Below are positions 27,619 to 53,636 of a DNA stretch of 64,000 nt, piece after piece. The notes beneath the pieces are model-generated. The model was not told the DNA's origin. It worked only from the letters and a program-made list of their open reading frames with translations, and did not search any database. Position 1 is the stretch's first letter. The number at the start of each line of letters is the position of its first letter. This DNA comes from a virus, in IMG/VR virus record IMGVR_UViG_3300028835_001449, positions 1 to 64,000 of that record, one strand, 5' to 3'. Position numbers and translations under genes: made by a program.

Positions 27619-28314
27619 TTACGCCCAAAACGTCGGAGCCTTCTTCGACTCCACTGTCATGGCATCATAAAACTTCTTCTCCAATGTCCGAGCATCCTTC
27701 AGCTCTGGGTCTGACAGCGTCCACGGAAACTGTCCTCCCGTATGGGAAATTGCACTCAACCGTTTCTGTCTCCTCGCCCTCACTTTTAACGCCTGAGATA
27801 TGGCGTACCACACGATAAACTTCTCGAACCTATCCTTACACAATGCCAAAGTCCAAGCCTTAATATAAATGTAATATACCCTATCGCCTGTTGTTGATGG
27901 CGGAGGAAGCAACCATAATTTTTCCGTTGCCTCGTTCCAATCCCAATCGGCTCGATCTGCTATCTGCTGAGCCTTCAACGCATCGACATACTGCGTTACC
28001 TGATCGAGCATAACATCATAACCCTCGGCTGGAAACTCAACGTCAAACTCACCGCCGAAAATGTCTGCCATTGTGGCTCGTCCACCTGCCCAACCGACAA
28101 ATACCACCTCTATTGCATCTTCGTGGACAGAATAGTCCGGCTGATCACCTACTGTTTCTATATACGACGTCGCCCAGTTTGGAATGTACCTATCGAACTC
28201 TTCTAAAGCTTCGGCGATCCAATTCTCGATATTAGCGTCTGGAACAATATCAACTGGCGGCTTTCCCGCTTCTAGCCTTATCCTTGTTACTAGTGCGCTT
28301 GCGTCCAGTCCCAC
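27619..28314 (-). CDS. Head-tail connector / adaptor protein (231 aa)
   Basis: The N-terminus (ALVTRIRLEAGKPPVDIVPD, then ANIENWIAEALEEFDRYIP) has the typical pattern of phage adaptor proteins that bind below the portal: a helix, an acidic turn, then IxxWIxEAxxEFxxY. GTG start seven bases after AAGGAGG, 65 bp inside the preceding gene. Conserved gene order with the gp10-like protein supports the call. Confidence 0.65.
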   Translation of the reverse strand: MGLDASALVTRIRLEAGKPPVDIVPDANIENWIAEALEEFDRYIPNWATSYIETVGDQPDYSVHEDAIEVVFVGWAGGRATMADIFGGEFDVEFPAEGYDVMLDQVTQYVDALKAQQIADRADWDWNEATEKLWLLPPPSTTGDRVYYIYIKAWTLALCKDRFEKFIVWYAISQALKVRARRQKRLSAISHTGGQFPWTLSDPELKDARTLEKKFYDAMTVESKKAPTFWA

Positions 28315-28501
28315 GGCGTGACCTCCTTAACTTCGGATTCGGATTTTCGGCCAACCTAATGCGAATAATTTCACCGACTTTACCGGGCAAAATATGTACT
28401 GGATTGCCCATGGCATCATAAAAGACTTGCTCCACCTTTGTTTTGTTTTTATACTTCTCTTTATAATACTCATAACCTTCTCGAGCAACTTGCTTTGCCA
28501 C
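28250..28501 (-). CDS. Small virion-region protein with shared QVxYD/PG module (83 aa)
   Basis: GTG start six bases after GGAGG. Residues about 18-46 carry the recurring module: Y-K-N ... EQVFYDAMGNPV ... L-P-G-K. It also occurs at the N-termini of two glycosyltransferases (43275-46067, 46076-47044) and in the genes at 51322 and 52956. The rest is a strongly basic tail (RRSRRGTGRKRTSNKDKA). Preceded by a conserved promoter-like element. Attachment or docking role inferred. Confidence 0.6.
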   Translation of the reverse strand: MAKQVAREGYEYYKEKYKNKTKVEQVFYDAMGNPVHILPGKVGEIIRIRLAENPNPKLRRSRRGTGRKRTSNKDKARSGKAAS

Positions 28502-28536
28502 CTGACACCTCCTTCAAAAATAATATCACACAAAGG

Positions 28537-28552
28537 ATTGCAGTTTGCAACC
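28537..28552 (-). promoter_or_regulatory. Repeated late-promoter-like element, copy 1
   Basis: Reads GGTTGCAAACTGCAAT on the minus strand, 35 nt before the GTG start of the 83 aa module gene. It matches three other copies in the window at 12-14 of 16 positions. A TATTAT lies 19 nt beyond the TTG. Confidence 0.5.
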
Positions 28553-28560
28553 CTAGCGTC

Positions 28561-29646
28561 CTAAATATAATTGAGACTCATGCCGTCTTTATTAATACAT
28601 TTTTCAACTAATTCATTGACAATACACACTTCACACCTCGGACATGCCCTCGGAACGATTCTAGTTAAAAGCTCACGATGACTCTTCGAACCCCACCGCT
28701 TTAAAAATGCTTCAAATGGATACCACTTGCCTAACGAGAACTCCTCGTCTCCACGCCGATCAGGACATGGATGGAACTTGCCATCGGCGCCCAGCACGCC
28801 AATTAACGGCGTTGCATAACATTTCCTGAACCGAATCGCCCTATTCCATTCCCGCTCTACTTTATGTACTATGCCGTAAATATGAAAAGTCTCATCCTCT
28901 AATTCTTTCCGGGCTTCTCTGAGATAATACTCGGACTGCTTTCTCATTCCCTGTGAAAACCTATAACGTGAAAGGTATATCGGACGAATAAGAGCTATGT
29001 CTGCGCCCATTGTCTTCGCCAAATCACAGAATCCAAACTGTTCATTGAAAGTAGTATGATGAATAAGAAAACACATTGTTATTTTGGGACGGCCATCATC
29101 TCCCCTGTTCTGAGCCAGCCAACGAATATTAGTCATTACCTTGTCAAAATAATCGAGTCCTGCCTTCTTAACTCTCAAATACGTTGTTGAAGTTGCGGCA
29201 TCAACCGAAAACTCGACCCATTCAACATACTTCAGCACGGCCTTTCTAATACCATCCTTTTCCAAACACAAGCCATTTGTCTTTATTCCGACACGTATAC
29301 TGTTCTTATCTAGCTCCTTCAAAAAATCTACAATCCGAGGGTGAAACAATGGTTCACCACCAGAGAGTACAACATTCTTCACTCCCCACTCTTTTAAAAA
29401 TACTGGAATTTCGAGCAACCGAACATCGGAGATTGACGTCAGATTTGACGACCTGTAATCCTTATACTCGCACCATGAACAATGAACATTGCAGAGATTT
29501 GTAGGGTCAATTGTTAACGTGACTGGCGGTTGAAGGTTCTCTTCTGCGCCATTTACCCACCTAACCGCGGCTTCGATCCGCTCTCTATGTGCCAAAGCCT
29601 TCATACTATTATAAGGATTATAAACATTTATCATTTCTTTCCACAT
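28561..29646 (-). CDS. Radical SAM protein with SPASM-like C-terminus (361 aa)
   Basis: C-x3-C-x2-C Fe-S motif at about residue 52 (CNVHCSWC), followed by the SAM-binding GGEP block (VLSGGEPLFHP), a GIKTNG strand and a C-terminal Cys cluster (CYATPLIG, HPCPD, CPRCEVC) like SPASM/twitch domains that hold extra Fe-S clusters. Radical SAM enzymes generate a 5-deoxyadenosyl radical; in glycan loci they modify sugars or peptides. It is the last gene of the glycan island and is separated from the next gene by 98 bp containing an isolated TATAAT on the minus strand. Confidence 0.85.
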   Translation of the reverse strand: MWKEMINVYNPYNSMKALAHRERIEAAVRWVNGAEENLQPPVTLTIDPTNLCNVHCSWCEYKDYRSSNLTSISDVRLLEIPVFLKEWGVKNVVLSGGEPLFHPRIVDFLKELDKNSIRVGIKTNGLCLEKDGIRKAVLKYVEWVEFSVDAATSTTYLRVKKAGLDYFDKVMTNIRWLAQNRGDDGRPKITMCFLIHHTTFNEQFGFCDLAKTMGADIALIRPIYLSRYRFSQGMRKQSEYYLREARKELEDETFHIYGIVHKVEREWNRAIRFRKCYATPLIGVLGADGKFHPCPDRRGDEEFSLGKWYPFEAFLKRWGSKSHRELLTRIVPRACPRCEVCIVNELVEKCINKDGMSLNYI

Positions 29647-29744
29647 TGCCTATACCTCCAATATTCGTCAAACCCGTAAACTCAGGGTCAATTATATGAC
29701 TATCGTTCGCCTATGCTCCTCTCCTGCCCAAATTCACGCTATTT

Positions 29745-30695
29745 TTACCACCTCTCGATGGCTGGAGCATAGTTTTCCTTGAACCATCGAATAGTCCACG
29801 AAAGTCCTTCTTCCAATGCTGTGTCCGGAGTCCAGTGAAGGACGTCTTTCATCCTGGTAATATCAAAAACCTTCGCCTTCGCACCTTCGGGCTTTGACGT
29901 ATCCCACTTGACCTCACCTTCATACTCTACTAGCTTTTTTATATAATACACAAGCAGCTTGATTGCTGTGCCGATGCCTGTTCCTATATTTAATGGTATT
30001 GGTTCATCATACTTTTCTGTTGCTCGAAGAATACCTTCTGCAGCGTCATCAACAAACAAGAACTCACGAACAGGATTTCCAGTTCCCCAAACTGGCACAG
30101 TTAATGAGTTATTCTTTTGGGCTTCAACGAACTTTCGAATAAGCGCTGCTACGACGTGTGACCGCTCTGTATTATATGAATCCCATGGACCATAAAGATT
30201 TGCTAACATAACATGAATTCCATTGAACCCGAACTGTTGCCTGTAAGCATTGCATTGAATAACCATCATCTTCTTCACTGCTCCGTAGCACGCAACTGAA
30301 CCGTGACACGGACCCTTCCATAAATCCTTCTCCTGCATTGAGCCTGAAACCTCGCCTGGATATGAGCAAGCTGTTCCTACGCCTACGAACTTCTTTACAT
30401 TAGCCTTCGCACATGCATCAATAACATTTGTCTGCATTGACATATTCGTAAAATAAATATCTGCTGGTATCTTCATATTAATCTCGATTCCTCCATAAAG
30501 TGCGGCTGAATGGATGACAATCTCGGGATGAAAAACTTCAATCATTTCCTCTGCTCTATTCTTATCCATCAAATCATAATCGGCGCTCCTTGGAATAGCT
30601 ACGTGTGCACCCCTATCCTCCAATTTCTTGACAATAACCCTGCCTAAAAAGCCAGAGCCACCTGTTACCAAAACCTTTTTGTCTTTTAATTTCAT
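29745..30695 (-). CDS. NAD(P)-dependent sugar epimerase/reductase, GDP-fucose synthase-like (316 aa)
   Basis: Short-chain dehydrogenase fold with TGGSGFLGR cofactor motif at the N-terminus, a G-T-A-C-S-Y-P segment and the catalytic YGAVK (Y-x3-K), then NLYGPWD and VPVWGTGNPVREF as in GDP-L-fucose synthase (WcaG/Fcl), which makes GDP-fucose by epimerisation and reduction. Start at 30695 (MKLKDKK), ATGA-coupled to the small membrane protein. It may make a deoxyhexose for the island's glycan. Confidence 0.8.
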   Translation of the reverse strand: MKLKDKKVLVTGGSGFLGRVIVKKLEDRGAHVAIPRSADYDLMDKNRAEEMIEVFHPEIVIHSAALYGGIEINMKIPADIYFTNMSMQTNVIDACAKANVKKFVGVGTACSYPGEVSGSMQEKDLWKGPCHGSVACYGAVKKMMVIQCNAYRQQFGFNGIHVMLANLYGPWDSYNTERSHVVAALIRKFVEAQKNNSLTVPVWGTGNPVREFLFVDDAAEGILRATEKYDEPIPLNIGTGIGTAIKLLVYYIKKLVEYEGEVKWDTSKPEGAKAKVFDITRMKDVLHWTPDTALEEGLSWTIRWFKENYAPAIERW

Positions 30696-30832
30696 GTCTG
30701 CCTCACAAAGCTCCATACCCCGAGCACTACAAGCACAAGTAATATCCATCGTGCGGTGTCGGGATAGAGCATTCCAAAGAATCCGCACAGCACTAAAATA
30801 ACTATGCTTACCTCATTTTCGGTTATCTTCAT
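30692..30832 (-). CDS. Small two-span membrane protein (46 aa)
   Basis: ATG at 30832 behind CGAGG; product MKITENEVSIVILVLCGFFG then a second apolar helix (ARWILLVLVVLGVWSF), ending VRQT. It overlaps the epimerase start as ATGA. Membrane topology suggests it could tether or assist the island's enzymes at the membrane; this is inference. Confidence 0.5.
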   Translation of the reverse strand: MKITENEVSIVILVLCGFFGMLYPDTARWILLVLVVLGVWSFVRQT

Positions 30833-30842
30833 ACTGCCTCGG

Positions 30843-31028
30843 CTATTCACAGTTGATGATGCGGACATCCGAACACTTCTCTTTCAAGCCCGGGAACTGC
30901 TTGTAGAACGCCTTGTACAAATTCTTCAGCTTCCTGTCATCCGCTTCCGATGCCGGCATCCGCCTCACCGGCTTGGCGGGCACCCTCGTTGTTATCATTA
31001 CCTTAATGTTCGATGTTGTTGTTGTCAT
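30843..31028 (-). CDS. Hypothetical protein (61 aa)
   Basis: Starts at 31028 behind AGGAGG. Thr-rich N-terminus (MTTTTSNIKVMITTRVPAK) then a helical Lys-rich part and a CSDVRIINCE end. No similarity recognised. Lies between two epimerase genes. Confidence 0.5.
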   Translation of the reverse strand: MTTTTSNIKVMITTRVPAKPVRRMPASEADDRKLKNLYKAFYKQFPGLKEKCSDVRIINCE

Positions 31029-31036
31029 TCTTCCTC

Positions 31037-31963
31037 CTACACATTTGAATATTGAGGCTTTGGTTCGAAAGACTGAAACAGATCGATAAGCTGTGAAACT
31101 CCCGTTTCCAAACTCACAGTCGTTTCGAATCCCAGAGCTTCTATTTTCTCGGAGCTGACTTCGTAGTCCCGTTGATCTTCGTCCCTTCCAAAGTCGGCGT
31201 AGTGCAAATAATACTTCACTTTCTTCTTGATAAACTCCGCCACCTGACGCTTCGTTAAATTCAGGTCTACCGAGCCGATGTTAAAAACCTCACCTTGCAT
31301 TTTTTCAATGTTCTGAATCGCAAAAAGGATCGCCCTGGCCATGTCCAGCACGTGCACAAACGCTCGTCGATAATCCGCCTCGTAGACAACCAGATTCTTC
31401 TCTTTCACAGCCTTGTAGCAGAAGTCATTCACCATCAAATCAAGCCTCATCCTCGGAGACACTCCGTATCCAGTAGCAAATCTAAGGACAATAGAGTTCT
31501 CTCTCTCCCTGACCGCCTCCTCAGCTAAAACTTTTGTATCACCATAGACAGTGAGAGGATCTAACGGCAAAGCTTCTACACAAACCTCTGTTTTCTTCCC
31601 ATAGCACGAGTCCGTCGAAGCCAGTATGATTGGAGCTTCCTTATTCGCCGTACCACACACAGTCCGTGTGCCACCAACATTGACTTCGAGAGCTTCCCGT
31701 TCGAACTTCTTACAAATCGGGAACCCAACGAGAGCCGCTAAATGCACAATGATAGCGCAATCCTCAACACGTTTCTCAAGGGCGCCGGAATCTCTGACAT
31801 CCCCCTTCACAAACTCAAAGTTTTTATGCAGGAAGCACGCTAAAAGCCCGTCAACTCCCCACATCAGACTGTCGTACACTCGCACTTTGTGTCCTGCTTG
31901 CAGAAGCATAGGCACAAGCACGGAGCCGACAAACCCCGCTCCACCAGTTACTAAAATTCTCAT
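31037..31963 (-). CDS. NAD-dependent nucleotide-sugar epimerase/dehydratase (308 aa)
   Basis: TGGAGFVGS cofactor motif, a V-H-L-A-A-L-V-G block, STDSCYG and the Y-x3-K pair (VYGDTKVLAE) identify an extended SDR. The sequence most resembles UDP-glucose-4-epimerase or dTDP-glucose-4,6-dehydratase-like proteins but I cannot fix the substrate. Start at 31963 where the preceding stop overlaps as ATGA. Likely makes an activated sugar for the island. Confidence 0.8.
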   Translation of the reverse strand: MRILVTGGAGFVGSVLVPMLLQAGHKVRVYDSLMWGVDGLLACFLHKNFEFVKGDVRDSGALEKRVEDCAIIVHLAALVGFPICKKFEREALEVNVGGTRTVCGTANKEAPIILASTDSCYGKKTEVCVEALPLDPLTVYGDTKVLAEEAVRERENSIVLRFATGYGVSPRMRLDLMVNDFCYKAVKEKNLVVYEADYRRAFVHVLDMARAILFAIQNIEKMQGEVFNIGSVDLNLTKRQVAEFIKKKVKYYLHYADFGRDEDQRDYEVSSEKIEALGFETTVSLETGVSQLIDLFQSFEPKPQYSNV

Positions 31964-32880
31964 TTGCTTCTCTCCCATTCAATGATTTTATCTAAAGCAT
32001 TTTCAAGACGCCCAAACCCAAACCTCATTAACTTAAACAATTCACTCAAGTTCGCCACCCGACCACGCACATCTTCAAACCCTTCAGGGTACACCTGATC
32101 ATATGGCACAAGCACAATGTCCGACTTGCTCTTTGCCCCCGCCTTGATCAGCTCAGCCAGCTCCAAAATGGAGATGCCACAGTTGCTTCCAACATCGAGG
32201 GTCTTGCCTTTGCTCTCAGGAATGGATCCAAGGCGATCGAGCACCCGCACAGTATCTTCCACCGGGCAGAAGCTTCGTGTCTGCCGCCCATCTCCGTAAA
32301 CTGTTATCGGTTCACCCATCGTTGCCTGTCGTACAAACCTCGGCACTACCATCCCGTATGACCCTGCCTGTCTGGTACCGATCGTATTAAAAATTCTGAC
32401 AATGCTCACATCGAGACCATACTTCTTAGCATAGGACAAAGTCAAAGCTTCTGCTGTCAGCTTACTGAGAGCGTAGTTCCAACGGGTGAAGTTGAACGGC
32501 CTCCCTGCCTCCAAACTGTAGACCTCCGAGCTTGAAGCTATTACCACCTTTTGATGGGGAGCCAAATTCTCCAAAACGTAGCCCGTCCCGAATACATTTA
32601 CTTTCATAACTTGATAGGGGTCTTCCATGACCTTCAGCATCCCCACAACGGCGGCCAAATGGTAGATACGATCCGCCCATTTCACAAGGTCTTCCAACTC
32701 TGGGGAGAAGATGTCTTCCTCAATGAATTTAAAATTGTGATGGTTCATAGCTTGCAGTAAATTAGCTTTTGTGCCCGTGCTCAGATCATCAATAACGGAC
32801 ACAACATCGCCTTTAGCCAGATGATAATCCGTCAGATGTGATCCAATGAATCCAGCACCGCCAGTTATCAGAACTTTCAT
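31960..32880 (-). CDS. NAD-dependent sugar epimerase/decarboxylase-like (306 aa)
   Basis: Extended SDR: TGGAGFIGSHL, YHLAAVVG, ASSSEVY, and YALSKLTAEAL with the catalytic Y-x3-K. ITVYGDGRQTRSFCPVEDTV is typical of UDP-glucuronate decarboxylase and related dehydratases. Product would be a UDP-sugar. Start taken at the second ATG (32880) because of spacing from GGAGGAGG; ATG 32883 is also possible. Together with its two SDR neighbours it could supply two or three different sugars. Confidence 0.8.
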   Translation of the reverse strand: MKVLITGGAGFIGSHLTDYHLAKGDVVSVIDDLSTGTKANLLQAMNHHNFKFIEEDIFSPELEDLVKWADRIYHLAAVVGMLKVMEDPYQVMKVNVFGTGYVLENLAPHQKVVIASSSEVYSLEAGRPFNFTRWNYALSKLTAEALTLSYAKKYGLDVSIVRIFNTIGTRQAGSYGMVVPRFVRQATMGEPITVYGDGRQTRSFCPVEDTVRVLDRLGSIPESKGKTLDVGSNCGISILELAELIKAGAKSKSDIVLVPYDQVYPEGFEDVRGRVANLSELFKLMRFGFGRLENALDKIIEWERSK

Positions 32881-33626
32881 CATCCCTCCTCCGAATATCC
32901 CATGAACGACATTATCTCCCCCGCCCATGACCAGAACTTTTTATTCATGGCCGGTGAGAACTCATCCTTCCAGCCACCAGACAAGCCTCTCAATCCGAGT
33001 TTGCGAGGATCAACTCCTTCTGAAGCACGACGCTTCAACAATCGGCTATACCTTGTCCTCTCCACAGCCTGCTTAATAATTCGCAAACTCGTTTTTAATT
33101 TTGTAAACTTAACAACCTTCCTCGTTATAGCAAGGGGGTCTGCCAACAAGTCCTCGTACTTTACCATTAATGATTCAACACCTATCCATCCTCGAAGCCA
33201 AAAAGTAACGTGCACTTTCCACGACCCAAAAGGCATCATCCCGGGGATGAACTTATCAATGAGAAATTGCTTGAAGGACATTGACGAATGAACCGTACCC
33301 TGCCATAAGCCAAAATGATAACATGAGAGAGCAACATCCCTCCCATCCCTATAGCTATAGACTGCGTTTGGATATTTGAGGTAATACGATATCATATCGA
33401 AATGACATTTCACAAAGACGGGGTTGTACGAGTACGACTGGGCCACAATATCAGACCAACCCCGCTGATGAGCATCTGGTATAAACTTATCAATATCAAG
33501 ATACCCACAGTCGACTTCCGGGTGCTGAATGTTTGCGAGGAGAAGTCTCAGCCACGTGTTCCCCGAGCGGGGATAAGACACCAGCCAAATGAACTTCTCC
33601 ACTACTTTCTCCTTATGAGTATCCAC
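32880..33626 (-). CDS. PAPS-dependent sulfotransferase (248 aa)
   Basis: Contains the 5'-phosphosulfate loop (WLVSYPRSGNTWLR, residues 14-27), the 3'-phosphate site (YRDGRDVALS, about 92) and the C-terminal RGLSGGWKDEFSP block that resembles R-x-G-x2-G-x-W-K in cytosolic sulfotransferases. It transfers sulfate from PAPS to a hydroxyl of an acceptor. Full family length. Overlaps the epimerase stop at one base and the methyltransferase by 25 bp. Acceptor unknown; the island's glycan is the likely candidate. Confidence 0.88.
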   Translation of the reverse strand: MDTHKEKVVEKFIWLVSYPRSGNTWLRLLLANIQHPEVDCGYLDIDKFIPDAHQRGWSDIVAQSYSYNPVFVKCHFDMISYYLKYPNAVYSYRDGRDVALSCYHFGLWQGTVHSSMSFKQFLIDKFIPGMMPFGSWKVHVTFWLRGWIGVESLMVKYEDLLADPLAITRKVVKFTKLKTSLRIIKQAVERTRYSRLLKRRASEGVDPRKLGLRGLSGGWKDEFSPAMNKKFWSWAGEIMSFMGYSEEG

Positions 33627-34210
33627 GTCTGTCTGCCCGGATGATAAACAGGCAAAATTCTCATGGTCAAGTTATGTTTTTCAATGATTGCCCTCATAGT
33701 GACAGGCCGATAAAATGCCCCCGACTGATTCCATTCCTTCCCTCCATAATCTACCTTACCCTCAGAATAAGTCGCAAGAAAAATCGTTTCTGGCTTCATA
33801 GCTTTGTACGCAGACTCCAAAGATTTGTCAATTTGCTGTTTCGGCATATGTGCAAACACAGATTGAGCCATGATGTAGTCGAAATTTCTTTTAAAGATAA
33901 ACATATCGCAGGCATCCGAAATTTCTAAGTAAGGTGTCTTCTCTCTAACGAGTTCTGTCAAACAGTTATGCTTTATTCCCTCAGTCACAAGGTCACGTTT
34001 TGGTTCTATCCCATAGTAGTTGCCACGATCAAGATACTGAATCGCAAAGCGTCCGAATCTCAAACTTCCACACCCGAAATCCAATAGACTGTGATAATGT
34101 CTCATTCCCAACGTGAAAAGATGAAAGAACTGCAACGCTCCCTGAGTGTCGTACCATTCTATCGGTCCAACGTATCTCCTCCAATCGATCACTACTTTCT
34201 CCTTGCTCAT
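33602..34210 (-). CDS. Class I SAM-dependent methyltransferase (202 aa)
   Basis: The glycine-rich SAM-binding motif LLDFGCGSLRFGR (about residue 42) is followed by YYGIEPKRD and a FDYIMAQSVFAHM catalytic segment. N-terminal extension of about 35 residues. Typical small tailoring methyltransferase of sugar clusters. Substrate not predictable. ATGA-coupled. Confidence 0.82.
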   Translation of the reverse strand: MSKEKVVIDWRRYVGPIEWYDTQGALQFFHLFTLGMRHYHSLLDFGCGSLRFGRFAIQYLDRGNYYGIEPKRDLVTEGIKHNCLTELVREKTPYLEISDACDMFIFKRNFDYIMAQSVFAHMPKQQIDKSLESAYKAMKPETIFLATYSEGKVDYGGKEWNQSGAFYRPVTMRAIIEKHNLTMRILPVYHPGRQTWILIRRK

Positions 34211-34740
34211 TTCTTCACCACCGCCCCTATTCCCATGTATGATGGCTTGAATGAGAATACCACCTTCATATATCTCCCCTCGTCTCTCATTATCTCACCG
34301 AATAGGATTCTGACCTCGTGATTCGCCTCGTGATGCATTACGTCGTGAAAGGCAACGATGTGTTCGGTCAGTGGTTCGTACATCTCATAGTCTCTCTTAA
34401 CTGATTGATAGTGATGATCCGCGTCTATGAAAAGAAGATTGATCAGCCTGCCTCCCAACTTCCTCTTCAATTTATTTAATGTTTCCTCGCTATGCGTATC
34501 GCCATGTATGTCTGGATTGTACTTGAGAGCATTGTCAATTCCAATGTGCTCTGCTCCCAAGAACTCCTCATAAAACTTTTTCTGACAATTATTTGCCACG
34601 CCCAACTCCACCACGATCGGATGTTCAACGCCTCTATTCTTAAAATAAGCTTCCGCAAACTCAAGAAAGCTCTGCCACTCCTCCGGCTGTTGCCAAAGTT
34701 TTGCTTTGCTCACTGAAATTTTAAGTCGTTCGATGTTCAT
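34207..34740 (-). CDS. Class I methyltransferase, CmcI-like (177 aa)
   Basis: VVELGVANNCQKKFYEEFLG, IGID, and LLFIDADHHYQSVKRDYEMY with the H-D-V motif match the CmcI/Methyltransf_24 group, in which the H-x-D and D-H motifs bind SAM and metal. The related N-terminal domain of the next gene suggests duplication. Start at 34740; the ribosome binding site is weak. Confidence 0.72.
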   Translation of the reverse strand: MNIERLKISVSKAKLWQQPEEWQSFLEFAEAYFKNRGVEHPIVVELGVANNCQKKFYEEFLGAEHIGIDNALKYNPDIHGDTHSEETLNKLKRKLGGRLINLLFIDADHHYQSVKRDYEMYEPLTEHIVAFHDVMHHEANHEVRILFGEIMRDEGRYMKVVFSFKPSYMGIGAVVKK

Positions 34741-34750
34741 TCTACCAATC

Positions 34751-36031
34751 TCAAAATAGCTGTGGATCACAAAGATGTTTCTCGCACTCCCTCCTTATCT
34801 CCTCCTCCGTAATAAAATGATGCTGAACAGTCAGCTTCCGCTCAAGATTGTAGCGACTCTGCCGCTCCCTCCGCCCCTTGATACGCCTTTTTATAGCCAT
34901 ATCCACATCAGCCATCGCCCAGTGAGCTCCCAAAAACTTCTCTGCGGAAACTACAACCCTTTCATTTGGCTTATACGAATGGCAACCCGGAGACCACTCT
35001 ATCCCGACTTCCGGCCGAACTATAATCGGCTTGGTGTACATCTTATTTATACCCGCCGTCACGTTCGGATCCCCGTGACGTCTCTGAAGCACCGCAGGTT
35101 TGGATGAATCCAAATCTTTATCAGTTTCATGCCTATACACCTGCCACATCTGAGCGTGCAGCAAATTGGCTTTCTCCCTCATGAGGACGGGCATTGCATG
35201 TCCCTTAGCAGGAAATATGAACTCGTCCGCGTCTACAGCAAATACCCAATCACCCTTCATTTTGCAAACGACTTCGTTCACCTTTCGAACCTTCAGATCA
35301 TCGTTCATCATGTCGGGAAACGTAAAATCCTCAATCTCAACGTTTGCATACTGCCCGCATACCGCTCTCGTATTATCGCTCGAATCTGTGTCCAATAACA
35401 AATGAACTCTATCAACCCATCCGTAATGGTTAAGAAAAAGTGGGGCCAAGAAAGCTTCGTTGTACCACATAGTCACCACCCCAAACTCCATCCGTTTCTC
35501 TACCCATGCCAATAGATAGTGACTGCCATCTGGTTGAAGAAGCAACTCATCTACAGCCTTTCGCACACCGGGATGCGCCATTCCCACCTTACCTACCGAC
35601 ACCGGTGAATGATAATCATGGAACACCATCAATCCTCCTCTCTTCAACTTGGGCCAAGAAAGAAGAATATCGCGTTTCACACTTTCATAGTCATGCGCCC
35701 CATCAATGAACACAAGATCGCAGTTAACTTTTAACCCCGGCAAGACATCCTCGGACTTTCCGACGTGATACACGATATTAGGCCAGCCTTTAATATTGCC
35801 TTCAAAAGCATTTAATGTGGTGAATTCCAGAGCTTGAATTTCGCTGCCTTTCGTGCCCTTAAACGTATCGACCGCATATACCTTTTTTGCCACCTCGGCC
35901 ATTGCTAGAGTCGACCTCCCATGATAGCTGCCTATTTCGAGGCAAACTTTATCCTTGCCCAATTCCTGTAATTTCAAACACTCAGGAGTATAGACATACC
36001 CATGCACACCTCGAAATGGTTTTCTACTCAT
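34751..36031 (-). CDS. Methyltransferase-glycosyltransferase fusion protein (426 aa)
   Basis: Residues 1-180 are a Methyltransf_24-like domain (VCLEIGSYHGRSTLAMAE, VFIDGAHDYESVKRDI, VFHDYH). Residues 185-420 are a GT-A glycosyltransferase related to Glyco_tranf_2-type enzymes (FGVVTMWYNEAFLAPLFLNH, LLDTDSSDNT, and the D-x-D ADEF of VFAVDADEFIFP). It could methylate and extend the same glycan. The first domain is homologous to the 177 aa neighbour. Confidence 0.75.
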   Translation of the reverse strand: MSRKPFRGVHGYVYTPECLKLQELGKDKVCLEIGSYHGRSTLAMAEVAKKVYAVDTFKGTKGSEIQALEFTTLNAFEGNIKGWPNIVYHVGKSEDVLPGLKVNCDLVFIDGAHDYESVKRDILLSWPKLKRGGLMVFHDYHSPVSVGKVGMAHPGVRKAVDELLLQPDGSHYLLAWVEKRMEFGVVTMWYNEAFLAPLFLNHYGWVDRVHLLLDTDSSDNTRAVCGQYANVEIEDFTFPDMMNDDLKVRKVNEVVCKMKGDWVFAVDADEFIFPAKGHAMPVLMREKANLLHAQMWQVYRHETDKDLDSSKPAVLQRRHGDPNVTAGINKMYTKPIIVRPEVGIEWSPGCHSYKPNERVVVSAEKFLGAHWAMADVDMAIKRRIKGRRERQSRYNLERKLTVQHHFITEEEIRRECEKHLCDPQLF

Positions 36032-43160: not shown

Positions 43161-43339
43161 AATGTTTTCCTCTCCCGCTTCCAATGTCGGCACGCCGACA
43201 TTGTTGGTCTTACCTTCTTCCGTCTCACCTTATGGTTCGTACAATACCACTCGCCGAACTCAGCTCGCATCTTTTCAAGGCAAGTTGGAAGAACTAAGAA
43301 CCAATGACAATTTTCGCACTTCTTTAAGCACTTCTTCAA
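43142..43339 (-). CDS. Small Cys-rich protein (65 aa)
   Basis: TTG start seven bases after AGAGG, 65 bp inside the end of the large glycosyltransferase gene. Layout C-x2-C-x2-F ... W-Y-C ... A-C-x2-W (CENCHWF, EWYCTNH, SACRHWKRE) is the same as in the 65 aa protein at 4457-4654 and in many phage orphan zinc proteins. An alternative is that the overlap is chance and the start is internal at 43270. Confidence 0.5.
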   Translation of the reverse strand: MKKCLKKCENCHWFLVLPTCLEKMRAEFGEWYCTNHKVRRKKVRPTMSACRHWKRERKTLWPKTS

Positions 43340-46067
43340 CTGATAACCTCTTTAAACAATCTGCATAATCAATATTCTCCTTCTCCCGATGAGGAGCATC
43401 GCCAAAACACAATGTCGAAAAATCACAAAAATCTTCCTCCAATGTTTGACAATGACCCTGAATCGGAATCATCGAAGGAAACATCTTAATAAATACCCTG
43501 CCATCACGATTACTGAATATTGTTAAGACCGGCTTGTCCAAAGCCCCTGCTACGTTTGATATACCTGTGTCGGGGGCGATAACAAAATCACACTCGGAAA
43601 TGAGTGCCGAAGCATGCCGGAATGAATAAGGATAAGCCCCAGACATTAACTTCTTTTTCTCATCAAGCACAATAATAGATAGACTCTCATCCTTCAATGC
43701 CCTAACTAACTCTTTCATATATGGCCATGTCTTCAGCTTGTTGCTTGCGGTCTGAGTAATACAAACTTTCTGACCCTTCGGCAGAGTCTTCCACATATCT
43801 CTCGCCCACTGTGCTTCATGCGGAAGGACAAAATAATCTGGCTTTAGTCCATCCTTGACACCCAACATATCGAGATAAATCTGCGTCCTCGGCCGCTGAA
43901 TATGCCCAAAATTTTGCATCTCCTGAAGCTCTACCCTGAATTCTAAATCTGTCAAATCTATTGAATAGTCGCCAACTTGTCTCGAAATACTATCACTCAC
44001 CTCATCAATATATGGATAAGATTGAAGAAGGGTCACGAACTCAGTTGGCACTACGTAAATAACTGTGACTGCCTGTCCGAACTGCTTCTTTAACGCCCTT
44101 GCCACAACTGTTATGAAAATGATGTCGCCATAGCCGCCCATTGCGCGCCTGACAATTACACGACACTTCTTCTCCCTCTCGATTATCTGATTTATCTCTT
44201 CGATAACGGTCATCCCTTTCACCCGAGTCTGCCATTCAATGCCCAAATTTCCAAGCCTCTGCTCTTCGTGAGGAAGAAATCCCCACTTCTCCTTATACCG
44301 CTTAATATTCCGTGCCCAGGTGACATCCTTGGTTCTCTTCGCCTCCACATTCATTGATTCGACGGCGCCGAGAGCATGATAAAACAAAGCCTGACTTGAA
44401 TGTAGAAACTTCTGACCAGCAAGTCGAATTCGAAGTGTGTAATCATTATCCTCGATGTATCTTGGGGTGAAGCTCTCATCAAACTTACCCACTTTTTCAA
44501 GACACTCCCTTGACAAGAGCGTTGCTGAATACGAACCCGCAGGAATATCTACAATTTCCTTCGTCTCCCAATCCGCATCTGATACGCCTTCATCAACTGC
44601 CCAAGGAGGAACATTTTTAATGGGACTAGACATACATCCAAAACACCCAGTCTTATCTGCTACGTTAATCAAGACATCCAATGTATCATAGCGAAGAACG
44701 AGGTCATTATTTAACAAAATCATATACTTGTAATTGCCCTTCAAACACTCATCAATACCGATATTCTGAGCGCTTGCGACACTCGACTGCTTGGACACAA
44801 ACTTAATGCCCTTCTCTTTCAACCATTCCTGAGTGCCGTCCGTTGACACATTATCCACAACAAACAGATCATAGTCATGCCAACACCGAATTGATGCTAT
44901 TGCCTTCTTCGTAAAAGATAAGAGATTGAAAGTTAACATTACGAGCAGTACACGCCGTGTATCTGTCTTCACCCGTTCAATCTCCGCTAACACAGTACTT
45001 GGATCGAGTGCCTCTAAACACTTCGAATACCCACCATCTTCTTTTTCTTTTGTTGACCTGCCTGGAATGCAGTCGAGTTTATGCCAGCAGGGTTGCTTCT
45101 TTAATTTAACTGTGCATGGTGCCTGAATAACCGATGCCTTCTCATAATCCTCACAGAAAATGTGACCATCTGTCGGGCCGTAAATGCCAATAATCTTTTT
45201 GTCCAGTGCTCCTGCCAAGTGTGAGTGAAGCGAATCATTAGTGACGACAATATCACACTGTTCTATTAACGCTGCCAGTTCTCTAATCGTATATTTAAAA
45301 GTAAAATCTTTTTCCCCCGTTTCATCAAGAATAATCACACCATAATCCCGTGTGCTAAGTTCCATAGCCACGTCAGCCATGAATGGATATGTCTTTGACC
45401 GAACGGATGCTCTCGTCTGAATTCCGACTAACGGGCGACGCAGCTTTCCAACAAACTTTTTTGCCCATTTTCGCTCGGCTGAAGACACGATGTATACCGG
45501 GCGTTTATCTATTGGATATAAGCCTAGCTGTGCTAAATAAATTGCCGTCCTGTTCTTTCTATGCCGTTTCTTTTCCCAATCCTTCGGTTCGCACTTCAAC
45601 TTGACATTATCTGTGTTAAGCAGGACATCATAACCCTTTGGTGTTTTCCCCTCTTCGATAATATAGATGTCACGAACGTATGGATTGAACTTCCAAAACG
45701 GCAGATATAACCTTGGAATCCGAATATCAACTATAGCTCGATCACCTAAAACATCCTTATATGCCTTTGGAATTGCTGTCGCAAGTACATGATCTCCTCT
45801 ATTCCCCACTGTCCGTTCAAGCAGAACAGTAACTTTGCCTTTCCTATCAAGCATCGCTTCTGCGTCCTTCTGGGCATTCCATAATTCGGGGCTGACAAAG
45901 TAAGCTGGAATATCCATCTTCTCCACGGTGTCCTTGAACTTTGTCTCACCGGGCATGACTGTTATCGGATCGCGATTAGAGTCATAGTAAACCTGTGGAG
46001 CTTTGCTCGTATTTGCATATAATAACCGCTTATACGACCGATAAAAACCTGTACCTTTTGCTCCCAA
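43275..46067 (-). CDS. Three-domain GT9-GT2-GT9 glycosyltransferase with N-terminal module (930 aa)
   Basis: Order of domains: the shared module (about residues 15-42, with APQVYYDSNRDPITVMPGE); a GT9 heptosyltransferase-like domain to about 340 (LLERTVGNRGDHVLATAIPK; VVTNDSLHSHLAGALDKK); a GT2 domain about 345-590 (LLVMLTFNLLSFTKKAIAS; VVDNVSTDGTQEW; LLNNDLVL; EDNDY); then a second GT9 from about 620 (VIVRRAMGGYGDIIFITV; IAPDTGISNVAGALDKP). TTG start at 46067 chosen because AGGA lies 6 nt upstream and the upstream gene stops at 46076; an ATG at 46124 would add 19 residues. It may build a three-sugar unit. The N-terminal module suggests docking. Confidence 0.82.
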   Translation of the reverse strand: MGAKGTGFYRSYKRLLYANTSKAPQVYYDSNRDPITVMPGETKFKDTVEKMDIPAYFVSPELWNAQKDAEAMLDRKGKVTVLLERTVGNRGDHVLATAIPKAYKDVLGDRAIVDIRIPRLYLPFWKFNPYVRDIYIIEEGKTPKGYDVLLNTDNVKLKCEPKDWEKKRHRKNRTAIYLAQLGLYPIDKRPVYIVSSAERKWAKKFVGKLRRPLVGIQTRASVRSKTYPFMADVAMELSTRDYGVIILDETGEKDFTFKYTIRELAALIEQCDIVVTNDSLHSHLAGALDKKIIGIYGPTDGHIFCEDYEKASVIQAPCTVKLKKQPCWHKLDCIPGRSTKEKEDGGYSKCLEALDPSTVLAEIERVKTDTRRVLLVMLTFNLLSFTKKAIASIRCWHDYDLFVVDNVSTDGTQEWLKEKGIKFVSKQSSVASAQNIGIDECLKGNYKYMILLNNDLVLRYDTLDVLINVADKTGCFGCMSSPIKNVPPWAVDEGVSDADWETKEIVDIPAGSYSATLLSRECLEKVGKFDESFTPRYIEDNDYTLRIRLAGQKFLHSSQALFYHALGAVESMNVEAKRTKDVTWARNIKRYKEKWGFLPHEEQRLGNLGIEWQTRVKGMTVIEEINQIIEREKKCRVIVRRAMGGYGDIIFITVVARALKKQFGQAVTVIYVVPTEFVTLLQSYPYIDEVSDSISRQVGDYSIDLTDLEFRVELQEMQNFGHIQRPRTQIYLDMLGVKDGLKPDYFVLPHEAQWARDMWKTLPKGQKVCITQTASNKLKTWPYMKELVRALKDESLSIIVLDEKKKLMSGAYPYSFRHASALISECDFVIAPDTGISNVAGALDKPVLTIFSNRDGRVFIKMFPSMIPIQGHCQTLEEDFCDFSTLCFGDAPHREKENIDYADCLKRLSVEEVLKEVRKLSLVLSSSNLP

Positions 46068-46075: not shown

Positions 46076-47044
46076 CTAACTTTTCCACATTACTTTCTCC
46101 AATGCTGAATTTACTGCTTCCCAAACCTTTGCCTTCGGCACTCTCATGCAGTCGATATTCATATGACAGGTATCAGCCTTTTCAAAACATGGAGTGCATC
46201 CCACCATTTCACTCATTGACACTTCAGATACCCCGTCGGGGAAGAGCGGATGATAACACAGCCGTTCCTTCCCACGGGTCGGACCTGACAGGAAAACAAC
46301 GGGGGTACGATAGAAATGTGCAATCCAAAGCGGCGCCGTGTCCATAGTTATAACTGCTCGTGCCTGCCTAATCTTATCCAATAACTCTTGCTCTGGAATA
46401 TGTTGATTATGATTGATATGACAAACCTTGTTAAACCGTGAAACCAGTTTTTTCTCAATGTATGATGCTGTTTCATCTTCCAAAGCTTTCTTACGTGTAT
46501 TGCCCGCAGAACAGAAGACCACACCATGCTTACCCGGTGAAATTTCTTCCTCGTTCCACACGGGCAACTCCCCCGATTTAAGTCCAAGAAATTCCCGATA
46601 GATGTCAACCCTGTGCTTTACTGAGTATTTTGGGTCTTGATGGTCCCGTTCTAAAATGTCATTGAGTATAATCCCCACATCATAGTGCTTGGGGTTTGTG
46701 TAAATCCTGTAGGAAATGGCATTAAAGACATCTCCTGATAGCTCTCTTAGAATAATGCTCGTCATGAAACGCCCACTTGTGACTAATACTACCTTTGACC
46801 CCGAGTATTTATCCTTGAACTCCCGCATAACAGGAATGAGCATAAGGATATCCCCCAAAGCATAGCTTCGAACAATTACATACGTTAAATTTGGTTTTAA
46901 ATAGGGCGTTATCTTATCAATACGATGAACATTTGGAATTGATGGCGGTGACGGCTGGATATCTACAATAAAATGTGGCGGAACCTCAATGGGTTCTCTG
47001 TTCTCATTATAAAACACCTGCAGACCGTTACCGTTGTAAATCAC
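46076..47044 (-). CDS. GT9 heptosyltransferase-like protein with N-terminal module (322 aa)
   Basis: GT9 core: VIVRSYALGDILMLIPVMRE, VVFCSAGNTRKKALEDETAS and AVITMDTAPLWIAHFYRTPV, the nucleotide-sugar-binding D-T/S-A/G motif of ADP-heptose:LPS transferases. The first 25 residues (YNGNGLQVFYNENREPIEV) carry the recurring module in a shortened form. GTG start at 47044 chosen with GAGG 5 nt upstream. First gene of the island, immediately after the capsid terminator hairpin. A C-x-x-C pair (VGCTPCF) near the end is odd. Confidence 0.82.
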   Translation of the reverse strand: MIYNGNGLQVFYNENREPIEVPPHFIVDIQPSPPSIPNVHRIDKITPYLKPNLTYVIVRSYALGDILMLIPVMREFKDKYSGSKVVLVTSGRFMTSIILRELSGDVFNAISYRIYTNPKHYDVGIILNDILERDHQDPKYSVKHRVDIYREFLGLKSGELPVWNEEEISPGKHGVVFCSAGNTRKKALEDETASYIEKKLVSRFNKVCHINHNQHIPEQELLDKIRQARAVITMDTAPLWIAHFYRTPVVFLSGPTRGKERLCYHPLFPDGVSEVSMSEMVGCTPCFEKADTCHMNIDCMRVPKAKVWEAVNSALEKVMWKS

Positions 47045-47065
47045 CAGCACCTCGGTTAAATAGCA

Positions 47066-47133: not shown

Positions 47134-48351
47134 TTACGAGCTGGATATGTTGATAGTTGCCAAGCCGTCTTTGATAAGAGTTCCGTATGCAAATCGACTC
47201 ATCAATCCCTTGCGGGGGATGAAGTCATTAGGGTCAACAATCTTCGGGGTCATATAGAGTGGAATGTACGGAGAGAAGAATCCAACTGCATCTGTCCAAG
47301 TCGAACCTTTATAACCCATCAGCATAGTTCCTGGATTAGCCCAATACGGATCTTTGTAAACGTTGAACCTGTTATTGAGTGTTCCTTCTAAAACTCTGCC
47401 AATCGAACCTGTGGTTGTGTCTGGTGATTCGGTGTATTTGAACTCTTCGAGCTTTTCGAGCCTGACAATGTCATCGGGATGACCGATGATCCAAGTTCCT
47501 GGTCTGTAGCGTTTCTTGAAAATGAGATTTGAGCAGTCACACACTGCTTCATACAGAGTTTTCTTATAGGCTGTTCGATCAATGGTTTTGACATCCTGAG
47601 TGAGCCATCCACTTGGGTTCCAGGTAACGGTTCCGGCACCTGTACCACTTCCACTTCCAGTTCCACCTGCACCTGCTAAGAGAGCGGCAATAACAAGACC
47701 ATCGATTTCTCGAATGATCTGATCCTGCAGAGCTTTCATAAGTTCTGTTTCTGCACTGAGCCTGTGATATGCCATTAAGTCTTGCTCTAACTCAATGGTC
47801 CATTTCGCTTTCAGAGCCTTTTCAATTGCACTGATGGTTTCGTCGGTTATCTCCAGATCGAGTTCTTTTACGGCAGCTCCGGCTTTGGTTTCGACTCTGG
47901 TGGCATAGTCTTTGTCACGAACATCGGCAACGGAATCCGCAGCACTTCCACCTGATGGTGCTGTGGTATACGTGAAGTCGAGATAGAAAATTTTAGCATC
48001 GGGTTGAGAAATGGGCTGAATTGACACTAAATCCATGGCAATCAGCTTGGCAAAGATTTTTCTGACAAGGGGCATAGCAATGGTAACGAACGAAGAGATG
48101 TCACCCGTCCATGTGGTTGCTTCGTCGATCATGGCATTGGCTTGGTTTTCCAAGCACCGAGCTAGAACATAATCCTTGCTATCGAGGTCTTTCTCCCTGA
48201 TAGCATTCTGATCGAGGTCTTCTGTCAACGCTTCATAACTGTCACCGAAGAATTTTACGGGGTCCTCCTTGAGCAATGCGAGTTCGGGGTTCTCATCCAT
48301 CTGAGATTCATACCGGGCTTTGAATCTGTCTGTGGCTGTTGATCGCTTCAT
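47134..48351 (-). CDS. Major capsid protein, T4 gp23-like (405 aa)
   Basis: The segment FVTIAMPLVRKIFAKLIAMD, followed by LVSIQPISQPDAKIFYLDF, is the hallmark of gp23-type HK97-fold capsid proteins. The C-terminal part (LMGYKGSTWTDAVGFFSPYI) matches the A-domain end. A Gly/Ser/Thr-rich loop (GAGGTGSGSGTGAGT, about residues 228-242) lies where gp23 proteins have an inserted domain. The N-terminal 60 residues are probably removed by the protease next door. Start overlaps the protease-scaffold stop as TAATG behind GGAGG. Confidence 0.9.
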   Translation of the reverse strand: MKRSTATDRFKARYESQMDENPELALLKEDPVKFFGDSYEALTEDLDQNAIREKDLDSKDYVLARCLENQANAMIDEATTWTGDISSFVTIAMPLVRKIFAKLIAMDLVSIQPISQPDAKIFYLDFTYTTAPSGGSAADSVADVRDKDYATRVETKAGAAVKELDLEITDETISAIEKALKAKWTIELEQDLMAYHRLSAETELMKALQDQIIREIDGLVIAALLAGAGGTGSGSGTGAGTVTWNPSGWLTQDVKTIDRTAYKKTLYEAVCDCSNLIFKKRYRPGTWIIGHPDDIVRLEKLEEFKYTESPDTTTGSIGRVLEGTLNNRFNVYKDPYWANPGTMLMGYKGSTWTDAVGFFSPYIPLYMTPKIVDPNDFIPRKGLMSRFAYGTLIKDGLATINISSS

Positions 48352-51321: not shown

Positions 51322-51561
51322 CTACACCGGCGTATCGTCAAATACCACCTCAAACCGCCTCGTCTCTGGATTCCAATAGAAATTTTTTACCGCTTGCATA
51401 CCGATCGGGGGATAGGACTTCACTGTGGGAGCCCCATTGGGAGGAACTTCGTCCTCCATGCTCAGCCATTTTGTCTCGCCCGGTTGCAACGTATGTGGAT
51501 TCATCCACTGATCATAATAGACCTGTGGACTCAGCGTATCGTTATTATACTCTTTTAGCAG
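51322..51561 (-). CDS. Small protein with shared QVxYD/PG module, CTG start (79 aa)
   Basis: The conserved module (Y-N-N, SPQVYYDQWMNP, PGETK) lies upstream of the first ATG in this frame, so translation must start earlier; a CTG at 51561 is exactly 6 nt after GGAGG and no ATG/GTG/TTG exists in the open part of the frame. The C-terminal half (VKNFYWNPETRRFEVVFD) is a small beta unit. A minimal virion module protein. Confidence 0.5.
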   Translation of the reverse strand: MLKEYNNDTLSPQVYYDQWMNPHTLQPGETKWLSMEDEVPPNGAPTVKSYPPIGMQAVKNFYWNPETRRFEVVFDDTPV

Positions 51562-51581
51562 TTTTAACCTCCAAGCGTCTG

Positions 51582-52292: not shown

Positions 52293-52304
52293 TGCCTTCA
52301 CCTC

Positions 52305-52676
52305 CTATTTGGATTTCCTCTTACTTTCAATCTTACCAAACCTCTTCTCACATTTGAGCACTTGGTCGGCATACTTCTGAGGAATTTCTGCTAGCTTGTC
52401 TGTCACTTCCTTTAACTCTTTCCGCTGTGTTTCCTTGTTCGCAACAAAAAAGTCCACCTGCGTCTTCACGATGCCCAGATCAACCTTGCACTGCCCCATA
52501 TCAGTACTCACGCCATCAAGTTTCTCCTCAATTCTCTTCAGTGGGTCATCAGCTTCCGACCCCGGATTCTTCCTCATCCTGTTCAATATCCAACGAACGA
52601 AATTAAACACCTCTTTCAGAATCAACAACGCTATTCCTGTTCCGATTACTGCGGCTACCGTCCTGCTAATTTCCAT
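52305..52676 (-). CDS. Membrane-anchored coiled-coil protein (123 aa)
   Basis: An N-terminal hydrophobic segment (TVAAVIGTGIALLILKEVF) followed by a soluble helical region (LKRIEEKLDGVSTDMGQCKV ...). The layout is that of small phage membrane proteins near holin genes, including pinholin partners and Rz-like proteins. Overlaps the preceding gene at one base (TAATG). Confidence 0.5.
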   Translation of the reverse strand: MEISRTVAAVIGTGIALLILKEVFNFVRWILNRMRKNPGSEADDPLKRIEEKLDGVSTDMGQCKVDLGIVKTQVDFFVANKETQRKELKEVTDKLAEIPQKYADQVLKCEKRFGKIESKRKSK

Positions 52677-52873
52677 TACTTCTTCCCCAAGACATCAGTA
52701 AATGTCAGGCAACCATCTATAATGCCAACCAACCCAACGCATAGTATCGAGAACTTGAACCAATCTCCCGATGTGTCGTTTGTAATTTTTGCAAGTGCAT
52801 ACGCAATTATCGTGAGCACTAACGCCAGAACCCCCATCTTAATCCTTCGGTTTCTCTCTTCATTGTTTTTCAT
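52676..52873 (-). CDS. Small two-span membrane protein, holin candidate (65 aa)
   Basis: Basic N-terminus (MKNNEERNRRIKM), then hydrophobic helices 15-35 (VLALVLTIIAYALAKI) and 41-58 (FSILCVGLVGIIDGCL), ending in KK. Two spans with positive ends fit a class II holin. Start at 52873 with AAAGGAGGAAAG. Function inferred from size and the adjacent membrane genes. Confidence 0.5.
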   Translation of the reverse strand: MKNNEERNRRIKMGVLALVLTIIAYALAKITNDTSGDWFKFSILCVGLVGIIDGCLTFTDVLGKK

Positions 52874-52890
52874 CTTTCCTCCTTTGGAAA

Positions 52891-52983
52891 TCATTCTCTA
52901 TCAATGAGCTCATGCCAAATCATGCACAGAGCCGCAACCGCTCTGCCCTCCTCGATTATTCCATATCTGTCATCTCCTTCCAT
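52891..52983 (-). CDS. Possible short overlapping ORF (30 aa)
   Basis: The -1 frame over the end of the 226 aa gene gives MEGDDRYGIIEEGRAVAALC followed by MIWHELIDRE and a stop. Its composition is protein-like, but the ribosome binding site is distant. Fills the otherwise empty gap before the holin-like gene. Confidence 0.3.
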   Translation of the reverse strand: MEGDDRYGIIEEGRAVAALCMIWHELIDRE

Positions 52984-53636
52984 TTCAATCTGAGACTCCC
53001 CTCATTGTTATCGGCATAAGACATCGCCCTCACCAAATACTTCGTATTCTGCTTTAGAACAACCCCGACGCGCTGAGACTCATCTGCCGCTTTTGCCGCT
53101 ACTTCAGTTGCTATACAACACGCAGCGTCGGCCTTGTCCACTGTGGCTCCCTTCGTGATAGTAAGCCCTGATTCGCCACTGCTCAAATTTCTATTTCTAT
53201 TTACGGGCACTACGGCAACTCCTCCCGACACATCAAACTTAGAAGGATCGCCTCCATCTTCAAACAATTCCCAATACGCAGGAGTATTCGCGTCACAAAA
53301 GATACTTAGGTGAGCCCATTTGAGAGTGTCTGGCACTATGATGTAAAATGTTAATGGAGCGTCCATATCAAATTCATCGAGGGCGGTTCTCTGACTTACC
53401 ATAAACGCATTTCCTTCGTGTACCGCATTTTGCATGATACTCGCTGTAATCAAAGCAAAAGAGGATGCAGCGAGTCTCGGATATTGATACGTCGCCCCTG
53501 TATACCCACGAGGGGCTCCGCCTCCTGGATCTGTCTCATATGTTATAGTCTCACCCGGTTCCGCCATATGTGGAATGCCATACTGATCATATCTGACCTG
53601 CCGAATACTCGTATTATTCCTGTAAGAAACTGTCAT
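52956..53636 (-). CDS. Virion structural protein with shared module (226 aa)
   Basis: The first 31 residues hold the recurring module (SYRNNTS, RQVRYDQYGIPH, EPGET). The remainder (VHEGNAFMVSQRTALDEFDM, FYIIVPDTLKWAHLSIFCDA, then VPVNRNRNLSS and LKQNTKYLVRAMSY) resembles a conserved, beta-rich phage virion protein. It is preceded by the repeated promoter element at 34 nt. The module here is most likely its attachment or oligomerisation part. Confidence 0.6.
   Translation of the reverse strand: MTVSYRNNTSIRQVRYDQYGIPHMAEPGETITYETDPGGGAPRGYTGATYQYPRLAASSFALITASIMQNAVHEGNAFMVSQRTALDEFDMDAPLTFYIIVPDTLKWAHLSIFCDANTPAYWELFEDGGDPSKFDVSGGVAVVPVNRNRNLSSGESGLTITKGATVDKADAACCIATEVAAKAADESQRVGVVLKQNTKYLVRAMSYADNNEGSLRLKWKEMTDME

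Follow-up and report, generated by a model that had tools for sequence, protein, structure and literature searches.

Few cases of phage virion glycosylation are known. As cited in PMC11256854, the mycobacteriophages Che8 and Rita encode glycosyltransferases and their major capsid protein bears glycans, and in Maravista, a related phage, the glycosyltransferase genes are located towards the 3' end of the genome. The literature searched on virion glycosylation is silent on how such enzymes find the particle, and our search, in which subscription journals were mostly outside coverage, returned no report of a GT9 gene beside a phage capsid gene. The closest solved enzyme by fold to the one described below is TibC, a protein O-heptosyltransferase of the BAHT (TibC/AAH) family, whose hallmarks are heptosylation of protein and a dodecameric assembly. 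The N-terminal beta barrel of TibC packs on the catalytic domain and takes part in dimer contacts (PMC4358343).

We analysed a stretch of 64,000 nucleotides (hereafter the window) from the viral record IMGVR_UViG_3300028835_001449, which comprises 70,858 bases. Five proteins of this phage have in common a homologous module of about 32 residues. The first-pass annotation had placed it in glycan enzymes and virion-region proteins without giving the strand; all five segments are present where it had located them, all on the minus strand. The relevant features are the following, each module being supported by a regular expression, a leave-one-out test and a profile.

27120-27611: gene after the putative first connector gene (phrog_5, tail completion/Neck1)
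27619..28314, minus strand: putative first connector gene, following immediately on that of the 83-aa protein (assigned by position; no PHROG match)
28250..28501, minus strand: module protein of 83 aa whose tail is basic, the final gene ahead of the putative first connector gene (from its position and its start, GTG 28501 with a plausible ribosome site)
28364..28456, minus strand: module of the 83-aa protein
28561..43193, minus strand: remaining glycan cassette (GT2 enzymes, two sulfotransferases, two sulfatase-superfamily proteins, three epimerase/dehydratases, methyltransferases, a cytidylyltransferase and two radical SAM proteins)
43275..46067, minus strand: GT9-GT2-GT9 enzyme, 930 aa from TTG 46067, which has a plausible ribosome site, or 949 aa read from 46124 (Pfam)
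45930..46022, minus strand: module near the N terminus of GT9-GT2-GT9
46076..47050, minus strand: GT9-like glycosyltransferase of 322-324 aa, encoded immediately after the major capsid gene (fold and profile match)
46955..47050, minus strand: module at the GT9 N terminus, residues 1-31, with four predicted beta strands (also supported by the structural model)
47134..48351, minus strand: major capsid protein (phrog_138, 1.5e-57), directly upstream of GT9
51322..51561, minus strand: 79-aa module protein with a probable CTG start and a GGAGG site (regular expression, start inspection)
51463..51555, minus strand: module of the 79-aa protein
52956..53636, minus strand: 226-aa decoration-like protein (relatives share its body, residues 31/43-226)
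53535..53630, minus strand: module at the N terminus of the 226-aa protein

A six-frame scan with a regular expression recovered exactly the five copies reported earlier, and a profile run against all 70,858 bases of the record found the same number, with no sixth copy. In a leave-one-out profile test run over 1,447 six-frame segments, four members were clearly recovered, namely the 930/949-aa enzyme (1.5e-9), the 79-aa protein (2.7e-9), the 83-aa protein (1.6e-6) and the 226-aa protein (1e-4). The 322-aa GT9 was weak when taken alone (0.06 versus 0.11 for the next best frame); it is counted as a member because of its relatives, since the GT9 of contig L004, 48% identical to it, carries FYNGGGLQVFYDWKRDPVEVP, and a profile built from 15 divergent phage GT9 modules matches both the 930-aa enzyme (6.6e-5) and the 83-aa protein (5e-4) of the window. 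In cross-class searches, profiles of one module class retrieved the others (1e-9 to 5e-4; hhalign 94.5-97.6%). The five segments are thus, as judged from their sequences, one homologous domain. Their DNA identity is 39-56%, and they are therefore not recent duplications.

This domain is described by no Pfam, NCBIfam or PHROGs family, none giving a convincing match over the module; the best weak match was phrog_4408 at 0.055, for contig L028 only. Among 395 cellular genomes of one bacterial phylum, nothing matched beyond the seed phage contig that defined the sample, and searches with tblastn against 50,697 phage records returned no relative of the GT9, while matches to the module or to the 226-aa protein were at chance level only. 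In the viral contigs, the strict pattern V[YF]YD....P....PGE was met, at the DNA level, in one contig, which is a second assembly of the window phage. A looser pattern was met in 29 stretches, of which those in L031, L032 and L028 are real or probable; most of the stretches were rejected as chance matches, many of them resembling tail-sheath proteins. Across the material searched (viral contigs and the 395 cellular genomes), the module is found in phage contigs only, and significant matches, far from being scattered over unrelated proteins, are confined to the phage capsid-to-connector region. Two genome contigs labelled Bacteroidetes and Methylomirabilis were rejected as host evidence and regarded as phage sequences that had been binned into cellular genomes, because their match and locus lengths equal those of viral L072 and L073.

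The two module enzymes are assigned with different ease. The architecture GT9-GT2-GT9 proposed at first reading was borne out by Pfam (PF01075 at 2.3e-26, 93.1 bits against a gathering score of 22, and PF00535 at 3.3e-8). The 322-324-aa enzyme, also called GT9 at that stage, has no Pfam match of its own; its relatives L011 and L012 exceed the PF01075 gathering score with 33.1 and 37.1 bits, it matches GT9 chains of the PDB by profile, and its predicted fold is GT9-like. Indeed, a confident AlphaFold model (pLDDT 89.8, pTM 0.90) shows a GT-B fold like that of solved GT9 enzymes, preceded by a four-stranded beta mini-domain that corresponds to the module. Foldseek matched this model to TibC, 3tov, WaaC and WaaF, TibC being the closest (E 5e-10, query TM 0.58-0.63). 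The fold of the module was assessed in the GT9 model alone, the model of the 226-aa protein being too poor (pLDDT 41). The module is, as first described, N-terminal in both enzymes.

Among the non-enzymatic members, the 79-aa protein has no ATG, GTG or TTG start that takes in the module, and a CTG at 51561 sits 6 bases past a GGAGG. Relatives of the 226-aa protein keep the body and lack the module, as expected if the module were a swappable anchor; on both the 79-aa and the 226-aa proteins, it was seen only in the window phage and its second assembly.

The association of the module with glycan enzymes and virion-region genes is conserved in other, uncultured phages. With the GT9 alone as query, we retrieved 18 distinct contigs with the order capsid - GT9 - connector, in which the GT9 gene comes right after the major capsid gene or is separated from it by one short GT9-like gene, and the N-terminal module recurs among phage relatives of the enzyme. 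The GT9 gene stays between capsid and connector genes even where the cassette is reduced to two or three genes. A small module protein, counterpart of the 83-aa protein, lies just ahead of the putative first connector gene in six of the seven relatives in which this region is readable, one of them having been a held-out prediction.

Considering both the module and its surroundings, the explanation that we favour, with slightly less than even confidence, is that of a head-operon glycosylation cassette modifying virion proteins, in which the 32-residue module would be a small beta-sheet anchor domain. The binding partner might be a component of the head or neck, or another copy of the module; the enzymes would thereby come upon virion proteins while the particle assembles and attach sugars to these proteins, and the small proteins could occupy that binding site as anchors, spacers or adaptors. 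In favour of this explanation are the cross-class homology of the module and its restriction to phages, the gene order in the 18 contigs, the small module protein before the putative first connector gene in seven of eight phages (window included), the confident four-stranded model and a protein O-heptosyltransferase as closest fold. Against it, the phages L063-L073 conserve the GT9 module with no small module protein seen, so that the module may serve the enzyme itself, the resemblance between module classes inside a single phage does not exceed expectation (p = 0.63), which gives no hint that the copies co-evolve for a common binding site, and the 79-aa and 226-aa cases come from one phage and its second assembly. 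The data suggest that the shared mini-domain may recruit the enzymes to the particle as it assembles. Docking, as the first-pass annotation had proposed from a premise that stands, is what we infer as the leading mechanism, because of the position between capsid and connector genes, because the module is N-terminal in the enzymes and the 226-aa protein, because relatives of the latter occur without it, and because the GT9 fold matches a protein glycosyltransferase.

The module could instead be an integral element of the enzyme, a beta cap or oligomerisation piece comparable to the TibC barrel, the small proteins being offshoots that bind or regulate the enzymes and the virion perhaps still being the substrate. 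We regard this as somewhat unlikely: the contacts of the TibC barrel (PMC4358343) and the GT9s that retain the module where no small module protein is seen speak for it, but the module is also present on the enzyme-free 226-aa and small proteins, always in the structural region, and the barrel has 97 residues versus about 31. Alternatively, the target of glycosylation could be phage DNA or host surface glycans, with capsid adjacency arising only since both are late genes. Phage glycosyltransferases do act on DNA and host surface polymers, as discussed in PMC12619734, and many genes of the cassette (GT2, epimerase, sulfotransferase) are of kinds typical of surface glycans; however, the place of the GT9 gene even in small cassettes and a best fold match to a protein-modifying enzyme make this improbable. 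That the module is a building block which evolution has copied from gene to neighbouring gene, with common ancestry and no common partner or function, seems to us quite improbable, since position and class, also those of the small protein ahead of the connector gene, are kept among widely diverged phages, although its sequence is variable, its copies do not co-evolve within a phage and the extra copies are limited to one phage. It is very improbable that the module itself is the acceptor, glycosylated at N-x-[ST] by the enzymes, including on themselves: this motif occurs in four of the window's five copies and at the N terminus of many GT9s, but not in the L004 copies or the window GT9 (N-G-N, N-G-G, N-K-G), and the nearly invariant Asn fits a structural role. 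GT9 enzymes are not known to be sequon-dependent N-glycosyltransferases. Finally, a short beta-hairpin pattern that arose by chance or by convergence, conceivable for so short a segment when the DNA pattern also had chance matches in tail-sheath proteins, has a negligible probability and is contradicted by the outcome of the leave-one-out and cross-class tests, by the held-out find in the phage of L062 and by the absence of background in the 395 cellular genomes.

Targeting of virion proteins by the cassette, if true, would explain why the enzymes stay in the structural operon rather than among accessory genes. A shared mini-domain, together with a capsid-adjacent enzyme gene in distant phages, provides a concrete targeting hypothesis, and the module is a short peptide open to direct testing. 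As a tentative and on balance unlikely extension, widespread undescribed phages might carry a protein-glycosylation machine in the head-assembly operon, in which TibC-like GT9s would dock by the mini-domain onto the growing head or neck, small module proteins would be adaptors or competitors, and the particle would be coated with complex, possibly sulfated glycans.

Compared with known systems, the window phage resembles Che8 and Rita in encoding glycosyltransferases, virion glycans being reported there; it differs from Maravista, where these genes do not lie beside the capsid gene. The 152-aa protein of the 7.5-kb contig L028, in which no glycosyltransferase was recognised, has a IYDHNQQPITLVPGET segment (E 4e-5 and 7e-5) and a gene flanked on one side by a capsid-like reading frame and on the other by connector-like genes (positional assignments), but the segment is near the C terminus and the first half of the module is unmatched. 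WaaF and WaaC match the phage enzyme in sequence and fold in the C-terminal lobe and by the DSG motif; their matched stretches have no counterpart of the N-terminal module, and the phage enzyme is far below the NCBIfam cut-offs. From TibC, it differs by an identity of only 13-15% over the structural alignment, by a shorter N-terminal domain and by retaining the DSG motif of LPS heptosyltransferases. Four cysteines in the C-terminal region are invariant in 20 of 20 phage GT9s, with a spacing (C-x2-C-x6-C-x5-C in the window enzyme) much shorter than that of the TibC iron finger (Cys339, 342, 358, 370). Of the TibC sugar-binding residues (Thr226, Lys230, Arg286, Trp305), the position of Arg286 is not conserved and that of Thr226 is variable. 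We weighed membership of the phage enzymes in the BAHT family and decided against it. They have in common with TibC and AAH an all-beta N-terminal domain ahead of the GT-B core and, with TibC, four conserved cysteines near the C terminus and conserved residues aligned with Lys230 and Trp305.

Consistent with the first-pass annotation, which had proposed that one short module is shared by two glycosyltransferases and three non-enzymatic virion-region proteins and is N-terminal in the enzymes, minus-strand translation of each of the five segments carries the claimed residue pattern. Pattern and profile scans detected no sixth copy in the window or in the 70,858-base virus record that holds it. 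Against 1,447 six-frame segments, leave-one-out profiles set the members apart, least strongly the 322-aa GT9 (glycosyltransferase family 9). Since the copies are only 39-56% identical in DNA, recent duplication is excluded. The 79-aa protein has an apparent CTG start (window 51559-51561), 6 bases 3' of a GGAGG site; initiation from the first ATG would truncate its module.

Homology between enzyme and small-protein copies was assessed by running single-class profiles on eleven loci translated in six frames. The GT9-GT2-GT9 module profile retrieved four small proteins (1e-8 to 1e-7), and the small-protein profile, which included the 79-aa copy, retrieved the enzyme of the related contig L056 (1e-9), the window enzyme (7.5e-8) and the 226-aa protein (5.5e-7). 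The divergent GT9 module profile reached the window 930-aa enzyme (6.6e-5) and the 83-aa protein (5e-4), with one opposite-strand frame at 0.003 as noise level. Profile-profile probabilities between module classes were 94.5-97.6%. Hits were not scattered over unrelated proteins: in 395 cellular genomes, all of one phylum, the sole match of this 32-position model was the set-defining phage contig.

The N-terminal position extends to relatives, whose GT9s retain a recognisable form of the module (e.g. MLYYNNTKCTQLIYSTGTVYPTAIYPKMIVD). Outside its building set, the module profile A11 matched the GT9 modules of contigs L064, L072 and L073 (2.8e-8 to 8.6e-10; L073 is close to L071, a building sequence) and missed those of L061, L063 and L065. 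Searching with a profile of five GT9s yielded 32 loci, and in 18 distinct contigs the gene for the enzyme comes after that for the capsid protein, directly or with one short GT9-like gene in between (L077-L083 were left out of this survey):

Directly after the capsid gene: window, L004, L011, L031/L057, L056, L059, L060, L061, L062, L065
One short GT9-like gene between: L063, L064, L066, L067, L070, L071, L072, L073

Exceptions are L068, with a 162-aa protein between the two genes, and L012, whose contig runs out upstream of the enzyme within an unrelated reading frame; in L076 no gene could be recognised as capsid. As these loci were retrieved with GT9 alone, the capsid linkage is no artefact of the search. 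Gene calls in the relatives simply took the longest reading frame, which leaves their starts approximate. No published account of the capsid-GT9 arrangement was found in the literature searched. L004, the first relative, orders capsid, GT9 and GT9-GT2-GT9 as in the window, with the module on both enzymes and no match elsewhere in a contig that stops shortly beyond them. L031, obtained by a DNA pattern search, has the module on the two enzymes and on a 108-aa protein preceding the first connector gene.

Such a small module protein also stands ahead of this gene in L059, L060, L065 and L074, and in L062, where the copy, left out of A11 building, was matched at 3e-5 and ends 1 base before the connector gene. 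The corresponding site in L061 has only 99 bases, without module match, and in the smallest-cassette phages (L063-L073) a longer protein takes this place. Small-cassette phages also encode, ahead of the GT9, short GT9-like proteins that start with another tiny domain, VKYTG...RN.W..VP....LLK:

L012:2442-3218 and L063-L073 (e.g. L064:6364-7155, a methyltransferase by Pfam): protein between GT9 and connector gene
L012:852-1412, L063:9297-9815, L066:9815-10387, L070:2102-2620: short GT9-like proteins with VKYTG-type N terminus

The 162-aa protein (L068:9401-9889) ends in a similar stretch, which may be a second shared mini-domain; it had no match among phage records. A further glycosyltransferase-like protein (L059:11010-11972) has an N terminus, LYTLNEDFIPEIYYDRRTCEPI, resembling a degenerate copy of the module, though not significantly so (E 0.39).

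PHROGs matches in the window phage comprise terminase, portal, head protease, major capsid protein, tail completion/Neck1, tail terminator and tape measure. Between capsid and connector genes lies a cassette of about 18 kb, whose enzyme set is sufficient for a complex modified glycan:

Glycosyltransferases: the two module enzymes and further GT2 enzymes
Window 32880-33626, 42342-43193, 39072-40319, 41137-42372: two sulfotransferases and two sulfatase/phosphodiesterase-superfamily proteins
Others: three epimerase/dehydratases, methyltransferases, a cytidylyltransferase, two radical SAM proteins

The sulfotransferases and sulfatase/phosphodiesterase-superfamily proteins, unusual in a phage, hint that the glycan may carry sulfate or other charged groups. 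One radical SAM protein (28561-29646) has a QueE-like PHROG match, and the FSAAH motif of the 57469-57942 protein is reminiscent of QueD-type enzymes; a DNA modification of the 7-deazaguanine type is conceivable.

The 83-aa protein gene is the last ahead of the putative first connector gene (27619-28314), named by position without a PHROGs match, the next gene matching phrog_5. The 79-aa and 226-aa protein genes lie between portal and protease, close to a tail-fibre-like gene. Upstream of the protease, the window phage, L004, L056 and L057 encode a protein (window 51582-52301; L004:6602-7357) that is hydrophobic over an N-terminal stretch and weakly matches ATP-synthase-B-like proteins. Relatives of the 226-aa protein (L006-L010) are 45-55% identical in the body and have unrelated, shorter N-termini, a pattern that would be expected from a virion anchor. 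In L006 the gene is near capsid-type genes (phrog_10) and adjoins a glycosyltransferase gene; this region (L006:1715-20549) belongs to a different phage, kin in the 226-aa body only, with capsid-type genes, glycosyltransferases and a radical SAM protein around it.

We tentatively favour, as most economical, a reading in which the module would belong to head or neck assembly as a docking domain, borne by the enzymes as a means to reach virion proteins. The glycosylated target is probably the virion, and less likely DNA or the host surface. The main rival, in which the module would serve the enzyme's own structure or oligomerisation, is only somewhat less probable than docking. No sign of co-evolution was found among the module copies inside one phage. 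The AlphaFold model of the GT9 (20 sequences; pLDDT 89.8, pTM 0.90) folds module residues 1-31 into four strands (block means 84-92).

Foldseek with this model placed the protein O-heptosyltransferase TibC on top (E 5e-10, query TM 0.58-0.63), then 3tov, WaaC and WaaF; the top viral match is annotated Aah/TibC. TibC, which heptosylates autotransporter proteins, combines an N-terminal beta barrel with a four-Cys iron finger (PMC4358343). The phage enzymes have four invariant cysteines at shorter spacing and conserve two of the four TibC sugar-binding residues. They may act as TibC does; we did not assign them to the BAHT (TibC/AAH) family.
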